A stretch of DNA of 64,000 bases from Natronobacterium texcoconense. GTDB lineage: Archaea > Halobacteriota > Halobacteria > Halobacteriales > Natrialbaceae. This document shows, piece after piece, positions 5,270-52,813 of this stretch; the stretch's first letter is position 1, and every line of letters starts with the position of its first letter. The position numbers and the translations under genes were made by a program. Under the pieces are notes generated by a model, which was not told where the DNA came from, searched no databases, and worked only from the letters and a program-made list of their open reading frames with translations. The stretch covers positions 1,054,001-1,118,000 of the forward strand of contig NZ_FNLC01000001.1 in the NCBI RefSeq assembly GCF_900104065.1. Direction: 5' to 3'.

Positions 5270-5722
5270 GTGAACCTGAAAGGCGTCGGCAAGTCGATCG
5301 GCAAGACGATCTATCGTGGAATCGGACGCGCGAACAGCCGAATACAGAGCCATCGGTCGCTCCCCGTCGACATTCTCGAGGACGAAACCTCGTATCTCGT
5401 CGTCTTCGACGCACCCGGCGCAGAACCCGACGACGTCCAGGTGCGATACCTCGAGGGGAACGTCAGAATCCAGATCGACCGCTTCCGCCAGTTTCGTGAC
5501 CGCTACGAGATGCGGTTTCCGGGCCGCGGGATGACCCTCGGCGGCGAGGCTGAACTCCCGTCCGACGCGATCGTCGATCCCGATGCGGGGACGGCGACGA
5601 TCACCGAGACGGGGACGCTGAACGTCGAAATCCCGAAAGATCCCTCCGCTGACGAAATCGAATCACCAGCGACGGAATTACACGACGAACAGAAAACGGA
5701 CGTTCCTGCAGGCGACGATTGA
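5270..5722 (+). CDS. Hsp20/alpha-crystallin family small heat-shock protein
   Basis: 150 residues from GTG, supported by GGAGGTGA at 5256-5263. The alpha-crystallin domain spans roughly residues 30-130: SLPVDILEDETSYLVVFDAPG, then VRYLEGNVRIQI, then a final ETGTLNVEIPK strand carrying the hydrophobic strand characteristic of the family. An acidic tail follows. Small heat-shock proteins act as ATP-independent holdase chaperones that bind unfolding proteins. The gene ends in TGA, which is also the first bases of the palindromic repeat at 5721. Confidence 0.9.
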   Translation: MNLKGVGKSIGKTIYRGIGRANSRIQSHRSLPVDILEDETSYLVVFDAPGAEPDDVQVRYLEGNVRIQIDRFRQFRDRYEMRFPGRGMTLGGEAELPSDAIVDPDAGTATITETGTLNVEIPKDPSADEIESPATELHDEQKTDVPAGDD

Positions 5723-5803
5723 GACGGATTGCAGTAACTGTTTACGCACAACCGCGACCCGTCCGGCGGTTATGCCGGCAATAATTTACCGTAGTCCGTA
5801 TGG
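5721..5803. repeat. dispersed ~83-bp palindromic element, copy A (most diverged)
   Basis: This starts inside the TGA stop of hsp20 (TGAGACGGATTGC...) and ends at ...GTCCGTATGG. Termini and core match copies B (22011-22093) and C (51337-51420, inverted): ACGGATTGC at the left end is identical to copy C, and the centre has CAACCGC facing GCGGTTATG. It lies between the convergent hsp20 and FAD-oxidoreductase genes. The length is the same as copy B by count. The inner stem is less perfect than in B and C, suggesting an older copy. Confidence 0.75.
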
Positions 5804-5832: not shown

Positions 5833-7017
5833 TCACTCTCTATCGCCAATCTGCATCCCTTCTGTCACCTCGAACTCCTCGTCGCCGTCGAACCGCGTCG
5901 GATCGAAGGCGTCGATCCCGTCGCCCCCGAGAATCTCCGTCGCGATCCGCTCGCCGATCGCCGGCGCGCGCATGAACCCGTGACCCTGGAACCCGGTCGC
6001 GACGTACAGTCCGTCTTCGATCTCGCCGACCAGCGGGTCCCCGTCGGGTGTCGACGTACAGAGGCCGGCCCAGGCGCGCTCGAGTTCTGGCTCTGCCTCG
6101 GGGAGCCGATGCCGGACGCGCTCGAGCAGGTCCTCGGCGAACCCGTCGTTTGCCTCGCGGTCGTACTCGTCAGGATCGGCCTCCCAGAGTTCGGTGCCGT
6201 CACCGGCCAGGATCCCTTCCGGGTGGGGACGGACGTAGAATCCAGCGGTTGCGTCGAAGCAGGTCGGCTCCGCGAGATCACAGTTCGCGACGAGCGCCTG
6301 GACGCGGTAGGGCTTCATCGGGATCGGTACGCCCGCGTCGGCGAGCACCTGCTTCGTATGAGCGCCCGCAGTGACGAGGACGGCGTCGACCTCGCGGGCC
6401 TCGCCGTTTTCGGGGACGACGCGTGGCGGATCTGTCCGAGCTTCGACGGGGTTCTCGGGCTCGAGGTCGGCTCCAGCACCGTTGGCCGCTGCCGCGAGCG
6501 CAGCCGTGTACTTCGCCGGGTCGGTGTAGCCCGCCGCACCCGCGATGCCGGCGACTGCGACGTCGTCGGTTCGGAGCCCGTCGAACCGGTCGGCCAGCGC
6601 GTCGGCGTCCATCTCGAGGGCGACGACGCCGTTTTCCTGCATCCGAGTGACCTGCTCGCGGACGAGGTCGGCGCGTTCTTCGTCGCCGTCCTGGGCGAGC
6701 CAGACGTACGGGCACTCGACGAACGGGAAGGTTTCGTCGCCCGAGAGCGCACGGAACCGCTCGATCGCGTCGCTCGCGATTTCGGCGTCCAGCCGGTCGG
6801 CGTAGGCGTCGTAGCAAACACCCGCCGCACGGCCGCTCGCGCCGCTTGCGATGCCGTCGCGGTCGTATAGCGTCACGTCCGCACCCGCACGAGCGAGGTC
6901 GTACGCAGCGGTCGCGCCGACCGCGCCAGCGCCGACGACAGCGACCTCGAGGTCGACCGACTCGTCGGTGAAGGCGTCGGCACCGACGGCGAGTTCGGGT
7001 TCCGAGTCGCCGCTCAT
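5833..7017 (-). CDS. FAD-dependent oxidoreductase, DAO (sarcosine/D-amino-acid oxidase-like) family
   Basis: 394 residues. An N-terminal Rossmann FAD site is at residues ~25-54 (VAVVGAGAVGATAAYDLA then VTLYDRDG), followed by ASGASGRAAGVCYDAY, the region after the flavin loop in DAO proteins. The C-terminal ATGFQGHGFMRAPAIGERIA closes the FAD domain. The family oxidises the C-N bond of amino acids or sarcosine-like substrates; the substrate here is not known. The start ATG overlaps the stop of the upstream creatininase-family gene (ATGA), so the two are translationally coupled and probably share a pathway. Confidence 0.85.
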   Translation of the reverse strand: MSGDSEPELAVGADAFTDESVDLEVAVVGAGAVGATAAYDLARAGADVTLYDRDGIASGASGRAAGVCYDAYADRLDAEIASDAIERFRALSGDETFPFVECPYVWLAQDGDEERADLVREQVTRMQENGVVALEMDADALADRFDGLRTDDVAVAGIAGAAGYTDPAKYTAALAAAANGAGADLEPENPVEARTDPPRVVPENGEAREVDAVLVTAGAHTKQVLADAGVPIPMKPYRVQALVANCDLAEPTCFDATAGFYVRPHPEGILAGDGTELWEADPDEYDREANDGFAEDLLERVRHRLPEAEPELERAWAGLCTSTPDGDPLVGEIEDGLYVATGFQGHGFMRAPAIGERIATEILGGDGIDAFDPTRFDGDEEFEVTEGMQIGDRE

Positions 7018-21541: not shown

Positions 21542-22012
21542 ATGATCGAAAGCGAACGCGACCTCTTCGCCCGGACGCTGCGGGAACTCTACCACATCGA
21601 GCGCGAACTCGAGGACCTCCAGGCCGAACTCGCGGAGGCCGCGACCGACGAAGAACTCGAGGACTTTTTCACGGCCCACAGCGAGCGCACCACCGAACAG
21701 ATCGGCCGACTCGAGCCGATCTTCGACGCGATCGAGGTCGAGGTCGAACCGGGGCCGATCGAGAGCGCGTCACTCGATGGCCTCCGTGCCAGACGGGACG
21801 AACTCGTCGGCGATCTGCAGGATCCCGTGCTGGGCGATCTGATCGAGATGGAACTCGGTCGGGCGATCGAACGCCTCGAGATCACCAGGCTCGAGACGCT
21901 GCTTGCCCTCGCGGATCGGATGAATTTGCCCGGCGAGGTCACGGATCCGCTCGAGACGACGAAAGCCGAGGCCGAGAACGGTCTCGAGGAGTTACAGGAG
22001 TCGACGGTTTGA
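21542..22012 (+). CDS. YciE/YciF-type ferritin-like protein (DUF892)
   Basis: 156 residues from ATG at 21542. The signature LRELYHIERELEDLQ, with the ferritin-like E-L-Y-x-x-E pattern, begins at residue ~13, followed by FFTAHSERTTEQIGRLEPIF and C-terminal helices carrying EMELGRAIERLEITRLETLL. The fold is a dimetal four-helix bundle; members are stress-induced and of uncertain activity. The TGA stop forms the first bases of the palindromic element at 22011. Confidence 0.85.
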   Translation: MIESERDLFARTLRELYHIERELEDLQAELAEAATDEELEDFFTAHSERTTEQIGRLEPIFDAIEVEVEPGPIESASLDGLRARRDELVGDLQDPVLGDLIEMELGRAIERLEITRLETLLALADRMNLPGEVTDPLETTKAEAENGLEELQESTV

Positions 22013-22093
22013 GACGGTTCTCTGCCACGGTGTACCGGCGCAACCGCAAGGAGCGCTCGGTTGCGCCGCCAATGACTTACAGTAGCCCGTCCG
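22011..22093. repeat. dispersed ~83-bp palindromic element, copy B
   Basis: Begins inside the TGA of the YciF-like gene (TGAGACGG) and reaches into the 3' end of the minus-strand gene, whose TAA is supplied by the element (ACTG-TAA on the minus strand). It shares with copy C two long identical runs, TGTACCGGCGCAACCGC and AATGACTTACAGTA. Its central stem (GGCGCAACCG facing CGGTTGCGCC) is perfect over 10 bp. Same orientation as copy A, opposite to copy C. It sits exactly at a convergent gene junction. Confidence 0.85.
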
Positions 22094-22790
22094 TTTGCTG
22101 GTCGCTCGCCTCGAGGACGGCCTCTCGCTCGTCCTCGTCGGTGAACTCCCACCAGGCGATCCGGTCGATCTCGAGCGGCCGGAACGACGAGACCAGCGCG
22201 AGCCACTCACAGGAGGCGATCGTAGCGCGAGCGGTACTGGTATCGAGCGGGGAGGAGTCGAGATCCGCGTCGACGTCGGTGACGAACTCGACGACGTCCG
22301 GGTCCGGCCGCACGGCGTCGACGCCGGCCAGTTGTCGCAAATACTGGAACGTCGAGGGGCCGACGCCGGCGATCGATCCGATCGGGTCCTCGTCGTACCG
22401 GTAGTGGTCGGCTTCGGCCGCCCATCCCGCAAGCGCCGCGAGGTCGTCGGCCTCCTCGCGAGCTGCGAGTACGTCGGCAGCCTCGAGGAGGACGTGGCGT
22501 TTTCGCTCCGCGCCGAAGGCCTCGACGAGGCCCTCGTCTTCGAGGTCGAGAGCCGCGATGTCCTCGAACGAGTCGATCCGGTCGGTCTCGACGAACGCCT
22601 CACGAAAGCGTTCGACGGCGGGTTTGATACCGTCCTCGAAACCCTGGCCAGTCGTCGAGGCGGCCGCCTCCGCGAGCAGGAGTCGCGGATCGTCGCCGGT
22701 CCAGCGACGATACTCGAGAAATGCCCGCGCGAGTTCCTCGTAGGGCGTCTCCGACGCATACTGCTCGAGGATCCCCTGGACCGAACTCAT
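22077..22790 (-). CDS. conserved haloarchaeal protein with possible HhH motif
   Basis: 237 residues from ATG at 22790. Acidic and mostly helical. It begins MSSVQGILEQYASETPYEEL, carries RAFLEYRRWTGDDPRLLL, and in the middle has IGSIAGVGPSTFQYLRQLAG, which resembles a helix-hairpin-helix of DNA-binding proteins. No enzyme motif. Function unknown. Its last codons (DGLL, stop) lie inside the palindromic element, so the element has set the C-terminus. Confidence 0.78.
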   Translation of the reverse strand: MSSVQGILEQYASETPYEELARAFLEYRRWTGDDPRLLLAEAAASTTGQGFEDGIKPAVERFREAFVETDRIDSFEDIAALDLEDEGLVEAFGAERKRHVLLEAADVLAAREEADDLAALAGWAAEADHYRYDEDPIGSIAGVGPSTFQYLRQLAGVDAVRPDPDVVEFVTDVDADLDSSPLDTSTARATIASCEWLALVSSFRPLEIDRIAWWEFTDEDEREAVLEASDQQTDGLL

Positions 22791-50712: not shown

Positions 50713-51321
50713 GTGGATTCTACCGAGACCCGTCGCGAGTGGGCACGACGTTCCGGCGAGTATTCTCCGGAGTACTACGCGTACTACGGGCCCGACGAGA
50801 CGAGTGAGACGATCAGACGCATTCTCGAGCAGTTCGTCGGGCGAGACGCTTCCGTCCTGGAACTGGGCTGTAGTTCGGGTCGGCACCTCTCCCATCTCTA
50901 CGACGACGGGTTCGACGACCTGGCGGGTATCGAGATCAACGACGACGCGTTCGATGTCATGGCGGAGCACTATCCAGACCTCGCAAGCGAAGGGACGTTC
51001 TACGCCGATGCGATCGAAGACGTCCTCGAGGAGTTCGACGACGGTCGGTTCGACGCAATTTACTCGGTGGAGACGCTCCAGCACGTCCATCCGGATGCCG
51101 AGTGGGTCTTCGCGGAACTGTCCCGGGTTACGGACGAACTCCTCGTTACGGTCGAGAACGAAGGGGCAGAAACGGAGTCGACCGACGGCGACGTAGAGTA
51201 CGTCGACGAGGACGTCCCCCTCTACTACCGTGACTGGAACCGCGTCTTCACCGACGAGGGGTTAGACGAGGTCGTCGTCGAATCGAGCAAACGTGATACC
51301 GTTCGTGCGTTCCGTTCGTAG
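50713..51321 (+). CDS. class I SAM-dependent methyltransferase
   Basis: 202 residues from GTG (leaderless, TATA-like TACTTTAAGG about 25 bp upstream). The SAM-binding motif I is VLELGCSSGRHLSHLYDDG, then an acidic end of strand 2 in GIEINDDAFDVM; motif III-like DAIYSVETLQHVHPDAEWVF follows. The acceptor is unknown. It is convergent with the Mqo-like gene, with palindromic copy C between them. Confidence 0.88.
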   Translation: MDSTETRREWARRSGEYSPEYYAYYGPDETSETIRRILEQFVGRDASVLELGCSSGRHLSHLYDDGFDDLAGIEINDDAFDVMAEHYPDLASEGTFYADAIEDVLEEFDDGRFDAIYSVETLQHVHPDAEWVFAELSRVTDELLVTVENEGAETESTDGDVEYVDEDVPLYYRDWNRVFTDEGLDEVVVESSKRDTVRAFRS

Positions 51322-51336
51322 GTCGACGTCTCCCGT

Positions 51337-51420
51337 CATACGGTTTACTGTAAGTCATTTCCGGTGCAACCGCGACCTGGGCGGCGGTTGCGCCGGTACA
51401 TCGGTACAGCAATCCGTATC
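51337..51420. repeat. dispersed ~84-bp palindromic element, copy C (inverted)
   Basis: On the plus strand it runs CATACGGTTTACTGTA ... TACAGCAATCCGTATC, with 16-bp terminal inverted repeats (13 of 16 matching) and an inner stem CCGGTGCAACCGC facing GCGGTTGCGCCGG (12 of 13). Its complement matches copy B over TGTACCGGCGCAACCGC and AATGACTTACAGTA. The end at 51420 forms the TGA stop of the minus-strand gene (TGATACGG). It sits between convergent genes. Confidence 0.85.
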
Positions 51421-52813
51421 AGTCGTCCGCGGCAGGGACGTCGTCGACGGTCTTCTCGTCCGTGTCGTCTGCCGCGCCCTCGCGCGGGAAGTTGTCGATC
51501 GTGTCTTCGCGGAACGCCGACTCGTCGAACTCGTATTCCTCGTCGAAGAAGTCCAGCAGCGTGTGCGTGTCCTGCATGGCGTTCTTGAGACACGTCGAGG
51601 CACCCGGCGACGGCGTGATGTTGAAGATGATGTCGTCGCCGACGATTTTCGCCTCGCCCATGTCGAGCGAGCGGTTCTTCGTGTCGACGATCTGTGGGCG
51701 GACGCCGCCGTACCCCTCCGCGCGGTCGATGTCCTCAAGCGTCGCGGTCGGGACGACCTTCTGGACGTGCGGGAGGAAGGCTCGCGGTCCGACCTTGGGC
51801 AGGTCGTAGACGAGGTTCTTGAGCACGTACGGCAGGAGAATTCGGTCTGCGAGGATGTTGGCGTAGCTAATGAACGACGCAGCGTTCAGTCCGAAGACGT
51901 CGAAGAAGTCCCGGACGGTCGAGAGACGGCCGCGCTCGAGCGTCGGGACGAGTTTTGCGGTCGGTCCAAACCGAGTGATGCTCCCGTCGTGGACGTCGGC
52001 GTCGCCGTGAACCGCGGCGAACGGGAGTTTCTTCATCTGGAGGGTGTACACCTTCCCGTTCAGGAAGTTGTCGGCGAGGAAGAAACTCCCGGCGACGGGC
52101 AGCAGAACCTTCCCCTCGCCGTAGCCGAGTTCCTTCGCGATCTGGAGGCTGTGTGAACCGGCCGCGACAACGGTGACGTCACAGTCGAACGGCCCGTCGT
52201 CCGTCGAGAGCGTGTAGCCGTCGGTCGTCTCCGTGATGTCCGTGACTTCCGTGCCGGTGTAGACGTCGACGCCCTCTTCTTCTTTTGCGCGCTCGACCAG
52301 CGACTTCGCCACCTCGCCGTAGTCGACGACGTAGCCGTCTGGCGTCTGGAGCGCGAGCATCTCCGTGTCCGAATCTCGTCCCTCGACGACCTTCGGCTCG
52401 AGGTCGGCGATCTCTTCGCGGCCGATCGCCTCGAGTTTCGGGAAGAGGTCGCCAAAGCCCTCCTCCTCGTATCGCTTCTCGAGTTTCTCGACTTCCTCCT
52501 CGCCGACGCCGAGGACCATCTTGCTGCGCTTGTCGTGCATCTCCTGGTCGGAATCGTAGTTCTCGAGATATCCCGCCAGCAGTTCTGCACCCTCCTTTAC
52601 CTCCTCGGCTTTCTCGAGGGTGTAGTTGGTCTCGATGTCCCCGAAGTGAAGCGTCTGGGAGTTGTTCGTGCAGTGTGAGTTGATCGCTGCGATCTCCGAT
52701 TCCTTCTCGACCAGCGCGATCGAGTCGACGTCAGTGAACTTCGCGGTCGTGTACAGCAGGGATGCACCACTGATTCCCCCACCGACGATAACGAGGTCGT
52801 ACTTACCAGACAT
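51419..52813 (-). CDS. malate:quinone oxidoreductase-like FAD dehydrogenase
   Basis: 464 residues from ATG at 52813. The FAD Rossmann start is KYDLVIVGGGISGASLLYTT. NSHCTNNSQTLHFGDIETNY and the C-terminal FNITPSPGASTCLKNAMQD are the pattern of Mqo and its close relatives. Mqo oxidises malate to oxaloacetate with electrons to the quinone pool, at the inner membrane face. Substrate identity is inferred. A long acidic tail follows. The TGA stop overlaps repeat copy C. Confidence 0.82.
   Translation of the reverse strand: MSGKYDLVIVGGGISGASLLYTTAKFTDVDSIALVEKESEIAAINSHCTNNSQTLHFGDIETNYTLEKAEEVKEGAELLAGYLENYDSDQEMHDKRSKMVLGVGEEEVEKLEKRYEEEGFGDLFPKLEAIGREEIADLEPKVVEGRDSDTEMLALQTPDGYVVDYGEVAKSLVERAKEEEGVDVYTGTEVTDITETTDGYTLSTDDGPFDCDVTVVAAGSHSLQIAKELGYGEGKVLLPVAGSFFLADNFLNGKVYTLQMKKLPFAAVHGDADVHDGSITRFGPTAKLVPTLERGRLSTVRDFFDVFGLNAASFISYANILADRILLPYVLKNLVYDLPKVGPRAFLPHVQKVVPTATLEDIDRAEGYGGVRPQIVDTKNRSLDMGEAKIVGDDIIFNITPSPGASTCLKNAMQDTHTLLDFFDEEYEFDESAFREDTIDNFPREGAADDTDEKTVDDVPAADD

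Follow-up and report, generated by a model that had tools for sequence, protein, structure and literature searches.

In Haloquadratum walsbyi, the small mobile repeats SMR-A and SMR-B measure 80-110 bp, are bounded by inverted terminal repeats unrelated to known transposons and occur in up to tens of copies (PMC3119063). They encode no transposase and their mobilisation has been called enigmatic; SMR-A displays a strong target preference, and the SMRs are reported to generate no target duplication (PMC3119063). PATEs are also non-coding haloarchaeal mobile repeats with palindromes (PMC3119063). Among bacterial repeats, GTAG REPs lie downstream of genes, where their tag supplies a TAG stop codon (PMC3733652).

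Here we analyse a 64,000-nucleotide stretch of the Natronobacterium texcoconense genome (the window) in which a palindromic sequence, copy B, lies at the junction of two convergent genes [Table 1]. We put at about 0.8 the probability that copy B belongs to a Natrialbaceae family of non-autonomous mobile palindromes that insert at (C/T)TGA and have TGA on both sides (the YTGA element). With its ~80 bp, inverted terminal repeats and no transposase, the YTGA element resembles the SMRs, its relation to transposons having been checked against three DDE_Tnp_1 groups of the sister species G003. It is set apart from them by description in its TGA repeat (unless the second TGA is element-borne), SMRs reportedly making no target duplication, and SMR-A targets palindromes of PATE/IS605-type elements whereas the YTGA element targets YTGA, often a stop codon. 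PATEs have only near-terminal IS605-related palindromes and no inverted terminal repeats; the YTGA element, in contrast, is one whole palindrome. With the GTAG/CGTC REPs and their RAYTs it has in common an imperfect palindrome, high copy number, clustering, location downstream of or between convergent genes and a tag that serves as stop codon (PMC3733652, PMC2817692), but it is archaeal, measures 80 bp rather than 20-40 and has YTGA/TGA on both sides instead of a GTAG/CGTC tag, and two copy-rich genomes (G003, G025) contain no intact, and hence no cognate, Y1 transposase. A further comparison is with MITEs. ERIC is an enterobacterial repeat of MITE type with the same traits as RU-1. These traits, found in the YTGA element as well, are a short, non-coding, inverted-repeat and intergenic nature, mobilisation in trans and a short target duplication (PMC2759123 for RU); the YTGA element differs in its TGA target, no related autonomous insertion sequence was found for it, and no sequence relation to these repeats is known. 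It is thus closest to the Haloquadratum small mobile repeats, the nearest described haloarchaeal kind, and to bacterial GTAG REPs. A text search for the repeat sequence among open-licence papers found no earlier description.

Copy B and the ends of its flanking genes

The original prediction described copy B as an 83-bp element at 22011-22093 with a 10-bp perfect inner stem. The element is real but one base wider on each side, and the stem, indeed perfect, is 11 bp long (22036-22046 pairing with 22058-22068). Copy B is among the more degraded copies of the family (66.8 bits with the covariance model described below), its right end reading CCGTCCGT where the intact form is CCGTATGA, and it had no match to any Rfam family at E<=1. 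Taken alone, it folds barely better than shuffled sequences (RNA folding z of -0.4 on the + strand and -1.5 on the - strand; copy C, -3.6 and -4.8), as might be said in favour of a chance similarity of short GC-rich inverted repeats; that reading is refuted by the ~70 strong copies and the family-wide occurrence reported below.

As had been proposed, copy B supplies the stop codons of both flanking genes. At the orthologous empty site of G003, there is an overlap between the two convergent genes: the frame of the YciF-like gene extends ~45 more codons and the convergent gene ends in ...TDQLEGFTVDS*; in N. texcoconense, the C-termini are ...QESTV* (YciF-like) and ...DQQTDGLL* (convergent), with both stops within the element. 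In another relative, G001, the element is absent and both flanking genes end separately. Copy B determines the C-termini of both of its neighbours, and the claim that the element fixes both ends stands for this copy. It is not general in the family: in the set of 70 own-genome copies, copy B alone has on its far side a gene with a clear coding signal whose in-frame stop lies within the element. The supply of both stops is an exception of copy B, the family rule being that the element systematically ends just one neighbour, the gene on the TGA strand.

Table 1. Coordinates of copy B, its parts and flanking genes, and of the other family members in the window
Feature	Position	Strand
Copy B, a mobile palindrome bounded by TGA repeats	22010..22094	+
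TGA serving both as stop codon of the DUF892/YciF-like gene upstream and as left unit of the TGA direct repeat	22010..22012	+
Outer arm of copy B, left side (consensus TACGGATTGCTGTAA)	22013..22027	+
Conserved internal loop of copy B, left side (consensus CGATTTA)	22028..22034	+
Left inner stem of copy B, CCGGCGCAACCGC	22035..22047	+
Right inner stem of copy B, CGGTTGCGCCG	22058..22068	+
TAA stop codon of the convergent gene, within the right outer arm of copy B (consensus TTACAGTAAACCGTA)	22077..22079	-
Upstream gene, DUF892 (YciF-like), 3' end in copy B	21542..22012	+
Convergent gene, no Pfam family, 3' end inside copy B; last residues TDGLL element-encoded	22077..22790	-
Third window copy, same family; TGA is the stop codon of gene 5270-5722 (+); convergent gene 5833-7017 (-)	5720..5803	+
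Copy C, same family; TGA (51419-51421, -) is the stop codon of gene 51419-52813 (-); convergent with 50713-51321 (+)	51336..51421	-

Structure, abundance and distribution of the family

The window contains two further copies: copy C, opposite in orientation to copy B, and a third that is probably copy A of the original prediction. An exact run shared by copies B and C, TACTGTAAGTCATT, is found unaltered at these two copies only, with a chance expectation of 0.6 matches even at 3 mismatches. In the whole N. texcoconense genome (G000; 4.01 Mb, 9 contigs), BLAST detects ~40 copies at 71-85% identity, and a covariance model built from 26 copies finds ~88 distinct places, ~70 of them above 45 bits. 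The similarity within the family is far beyond chance. Matches were found in 30 of 37 Natrialbaceae genomes, the richest having at least 73, and outside the Natrialbaceae in three of 24 genomes, with 1-2 weak matches each. A scan of 84,980 species with a 27-base pattern returned 29 exact matches, all in Natrialbaceae (Natrialba, Natrarchaeobius, Natronorubrum, Salinadaptatus and one assembly named to family only). Many Natrialbaceae genomes are rich in the element, which is almost missing outside the Natrialbaceae.

The mobile unit is an imperfect palindrome of ~80 bp, TACGG...CCGTA, with a TGA direct repeat on both flanks and the consensus TSA-TACGGATTGCTGTAA-CGATTTA-CCGGCGCAACCGC-N10-GCGGTTGCGCCGG-AAATGAC-TTACAGTAAACCGTA-TSA. 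Its predicted structure consists of a 15-bp outer stem broken at positions 9/78 by one constant A.A or T.T mismatch, a 7x7 internal loop of which each strand is conserved with no position-for-position pairing, and a 13-bp inner stem closed by a variable loop. Given this structure, 93% of cells pair, against at most 41% in all slid controls, and six stem pairs are altered on both sides. Such paired changes are compensatory, although arm-to-arm homogenisation by template switching could be another source of them. The S positions at the ends form a direct repeat, not a base pair, being G/G (TGA...TGA) in 62 unique copies, C/C (TCA...TCA) in 29 and mixed in eight; the ends, read on the appropriate strand, therefore have TGA on both sides. 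The element is non-coding and, at 80 bp with 15-bp outer arms, combines the shortness and terminal inverted repeats of MITEs; it is too short for a transposase.

Some copies depart from this plan or lie in unusual settings. The 10-nt loop occurs in two mutually reverse-complementary forms, CGCCCGGGTC and GACCCGGGCG, among G000 and G021 copies, which suggests loop inversion between the arms of the inner stem. One 143-bp copy (L123:4412-4554, the same place as L283:5426-5568) has a 57-bp insertion in its left inner stem, the insert being itself rich in inverted repeats. At G000:C1:330211-334714 (L270), four copies lie within 4.5 kb and one partial copy abuts another.

Insertion at (C/T)TGA and its relation to stop codons

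Orthologous sites in relatives were aligned and only those with clean flanks on both sides were used, because many sites were too diverged downstream and some automatic filled or empty labels were alignment noise. At several of these sites the relative has a single TGA where N. texcoconense has TGA-element-TGA, both flanks being conserved. Thus at L061 the empty site of G003 reads TTC TGA GCGCCCTTGCAGATACAGCG (TTC-TGA-GCGCCCTTGCAG) and the filled site of G000 TTT TGA, the element and TGA ACGGCCCTGCAGATACAGCG (TGA-ACGGCCCTGCAG); L038 is another empty-site case, with respect to both G003 and G001. G003 also harbours eight identical copies at different loci, and copies with at most three mismatches from a consensus number 61 in G003, 62 in G016 and 39 in G021. 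The empty sites with one TGA, together with the eight identical copies in the sister species, indicate that the element is mobile. The proposal that copy B is a dispersed MITE- or REP-like unit that moves is borne out by these sites and identical copies as well as by the ~70 clear copies of the own genome.

The element also inserts next to itself, in tandem arrays of the form TGA-E1-TGA-E2-TGA-E3-TGA whose units belong to different subfamilies and have single TGAs in common (in G003, three units each at L131 and L225); such arrays point to repeated insertion, not tandem duplication. At L225:541-786, where three subfamilies stand in tandem, the outer arms are conserved and the inner stem sequences unrelated.

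The TGA direct repeat was perfect in all 20 fresh copies examined (G003 and G016), at a stop codon or not, and its presence beside a single TGA at empty sites is what a MITE target-site duplication would leave. The two TGAs may represent either a 3-bp target duplication or one target TGA and one carried by the element. Identical interiors were found in both orientations relative to TGA. An orientation inherited with the lineage, as for an element-borne TGA, was hinted at by eight identical TCA-type copies of G003 and set aside, other identical sets being mixed. The base before TGA is a pyrimidine, C or T, in 98 of the 116 copies, compared with 57% of ordinary TGA stops and 42% of intergenic TGAs (p=3e-5 for stop copies against TGA stops, p=1e-9 for non-stop copies against intergenic TGAs), and the target is therefore YTGA, which the element finds at gene ends, at intergenic sites or in other copies.

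The original prediction hinged on further copies and on their relation to stop codons, and both were found. Beyond the ~88 places of the own genome, the edge TGA is the exact stop codon of the upstream gene in 66 of 126 copies overall (G000, 45/70; G003, 6/14; G016, 1/6; named Natrialbaceae contigs, 14/36), against a baseline share of stops among TGA stops plus intergenic TGAs of 16% in the window and 10% over a larger sample. The gene calls behind these stop-codon counts come from a codon model fitted to the window, not from a curated annotation, so the counts carry calling error; the copies, being related by descent, are also not fully independent. Old copies have a higher stop-codon share than fresh ones (G000, 45/70; fresh, 7/20; p=0.02), which fits better survival at stop codons. 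Fresh copies also occur at non-stop YTGA sites, so that the primary target is a short sequence, and the statement that the element is unlike a random insertion was too strong.

Retention alone may nevertheless be insufficient to account for the bias, as fresh G003 insertions are also enriched at stops, 6 of 14 against the 10% baseline (p=0.0015). This enrichment is what would be expected if insertion were actively directed to gene ends, coupled to translation or transcripts, beyond the choice of YTGA. We find such targeting quite improbable: only one of six fresh G016 copies is at a stop, fresh copies also lie in plain intergenic DNA, and the share is inflated by purifying selection acting on insertions that hit genes or promoters.

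As to whether the flanking genes are convergent, 29 of 70 copies lie between convergent neighbours, an enrichment over the 22% baseline (p=2e-4), and divergent neighbours are depleted (6/70 against 21%). The CGATTTA-first orientation on the gene strand is favoured 52:14 at stop codons and 29:26 elsewhere (p=0.003), a lead only, because copies related by descent are not independent. Both biases, and the position of the hairpin immediately 3' of the stop codon, would suit a selected 3'-end element, a bidirectional terminator or mRNA stabiliser kept for ending or protecting transcripts and for which mobility is only the route of spreading. We regard this as unlikely, since 115 of 116 copies lack any run of at least four T on the gene strand, the 80 nt downstream contain T-tracts about as often as those that follow ordinary genes (22/116 and 73/439), a terminator-like site was sought and not found at copy B, several orthologous sites in relatives lack the element and several non-stop copies lie a long way from the nearest gene end. 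Without T-tracts the element is not a canonical archaeal terminator, and the sequence lends no support to the terminator half of the suggestion of a bidirectional terminator that moves. REPs near E. coli stop codons have been proposed to affect mRNA stability or translation termination (PMC12306157), and by analogy a hairpin right after the stop codon may influence either process.

Mobilisation of the element and its significance

Y1 transposases were searched for because IS200/IS605 and REP elements both depend on them. In a REP-type mechanism, a Y1 enzyme (RAYT/IS200-IS605) would cut out a YTGA-tagged hairpin and paste it elsewhere in single-stranded form, the right TGA being element-borne. 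The short motif joined to an imperfect hairpin with conserved mismatches, the location downstream of genes with a tag serving as stop codon as in GTAG REPs (PMC3733652) and the empty sites with a single TGA are all in keeping with such a mechanism. Intact Y1 transposases are widespread in Natrialbaceae, but G003, which has the freshest copies, has only truncated ones (PF01797) and G025, with 67 element matches, has none, so that Y1 was rejected as mobiliser. The length of 80 bp rather than 20-40 and the two orientations relative to TGA also weigh against a REP-type mechanism, which we consider improbable.

Other candidates fared no better. Multicopy DDE_Tnp_1 transposases were rejected as partners, the three delimited groups of G003 having other ends (TATCYGTCTTTAGC, AGGGTGTCATAG and GGCTCTGGTGAATC) and other flanking repeats; the comparison covered these three groups, leaving aside a 447-aa group that could not be delimited and lower-scoring matches. 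No pair of element arms was found around a longer insert in G000, nor in G003 among the matches listed, and the genes between close element pairs encode regulators, NUDIX, Fe-S assembly and chemotaxis proteins and no recombinase. An integron attC site, considered for the hairpin layout, does not appear to apply, as no attC-like R-box or integrase link was seen. As a separate observation, a ~1.05-kb DDE_Tnp_1 insertion sequence present in eight near-identical copies in G003 has inserted into one copy of the palindrome (L248) and directly next to another (L251).

Returning to the mobile palindrome with (C/T)TGA as its site, we propose that this imperfect hairpin of ~80 bp, its outer arms acting as terminal inverted repeats, would be moved in trans by a host- or element-encoded enzyme that reads the hairpin or the arms; its insertion at (C/T)TGA leaves TGA on both sides. 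A copy that lands in a TGA stop leaves the upstream protein exactly as it was, so copies at such sites are probably harmless and persist. The side effects are an mRNA hairpin that starts immediately 3' of the stop codon and, at copy B, new C-termini of both convergent genes. Tentatively, the enzyme may be an undescribed haloarchaeal one, neither Y1 nor a standard insertion sequence transposase, that recognises the hairpin with its conserved mismatch loop and inserts it at (C/T)TGA, favouring gene ends, a possibility we hold with some doubt.

The element is real, mobile and family-wide, a palindrome with an unusual and well-defined insertion site. If this last possibility is true, stop codons would offer a mobile element safe harbour, and convergent genes would gain new C-termini and 3' hairpins. 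The family provides an archaeal counterpart of the bacterial REPs for which the target rule is clear, copies have been active recently and empty sites have been mapped, and it makes the movement of haloarchaeal small mobile repeats, called enigmatic (PMC3119063), directly testable. Using the stop codon as its insertion site, such an element can settle densely in a compact genome, altering the 3' ends of genes and, at copy B, the C-termini of their products.
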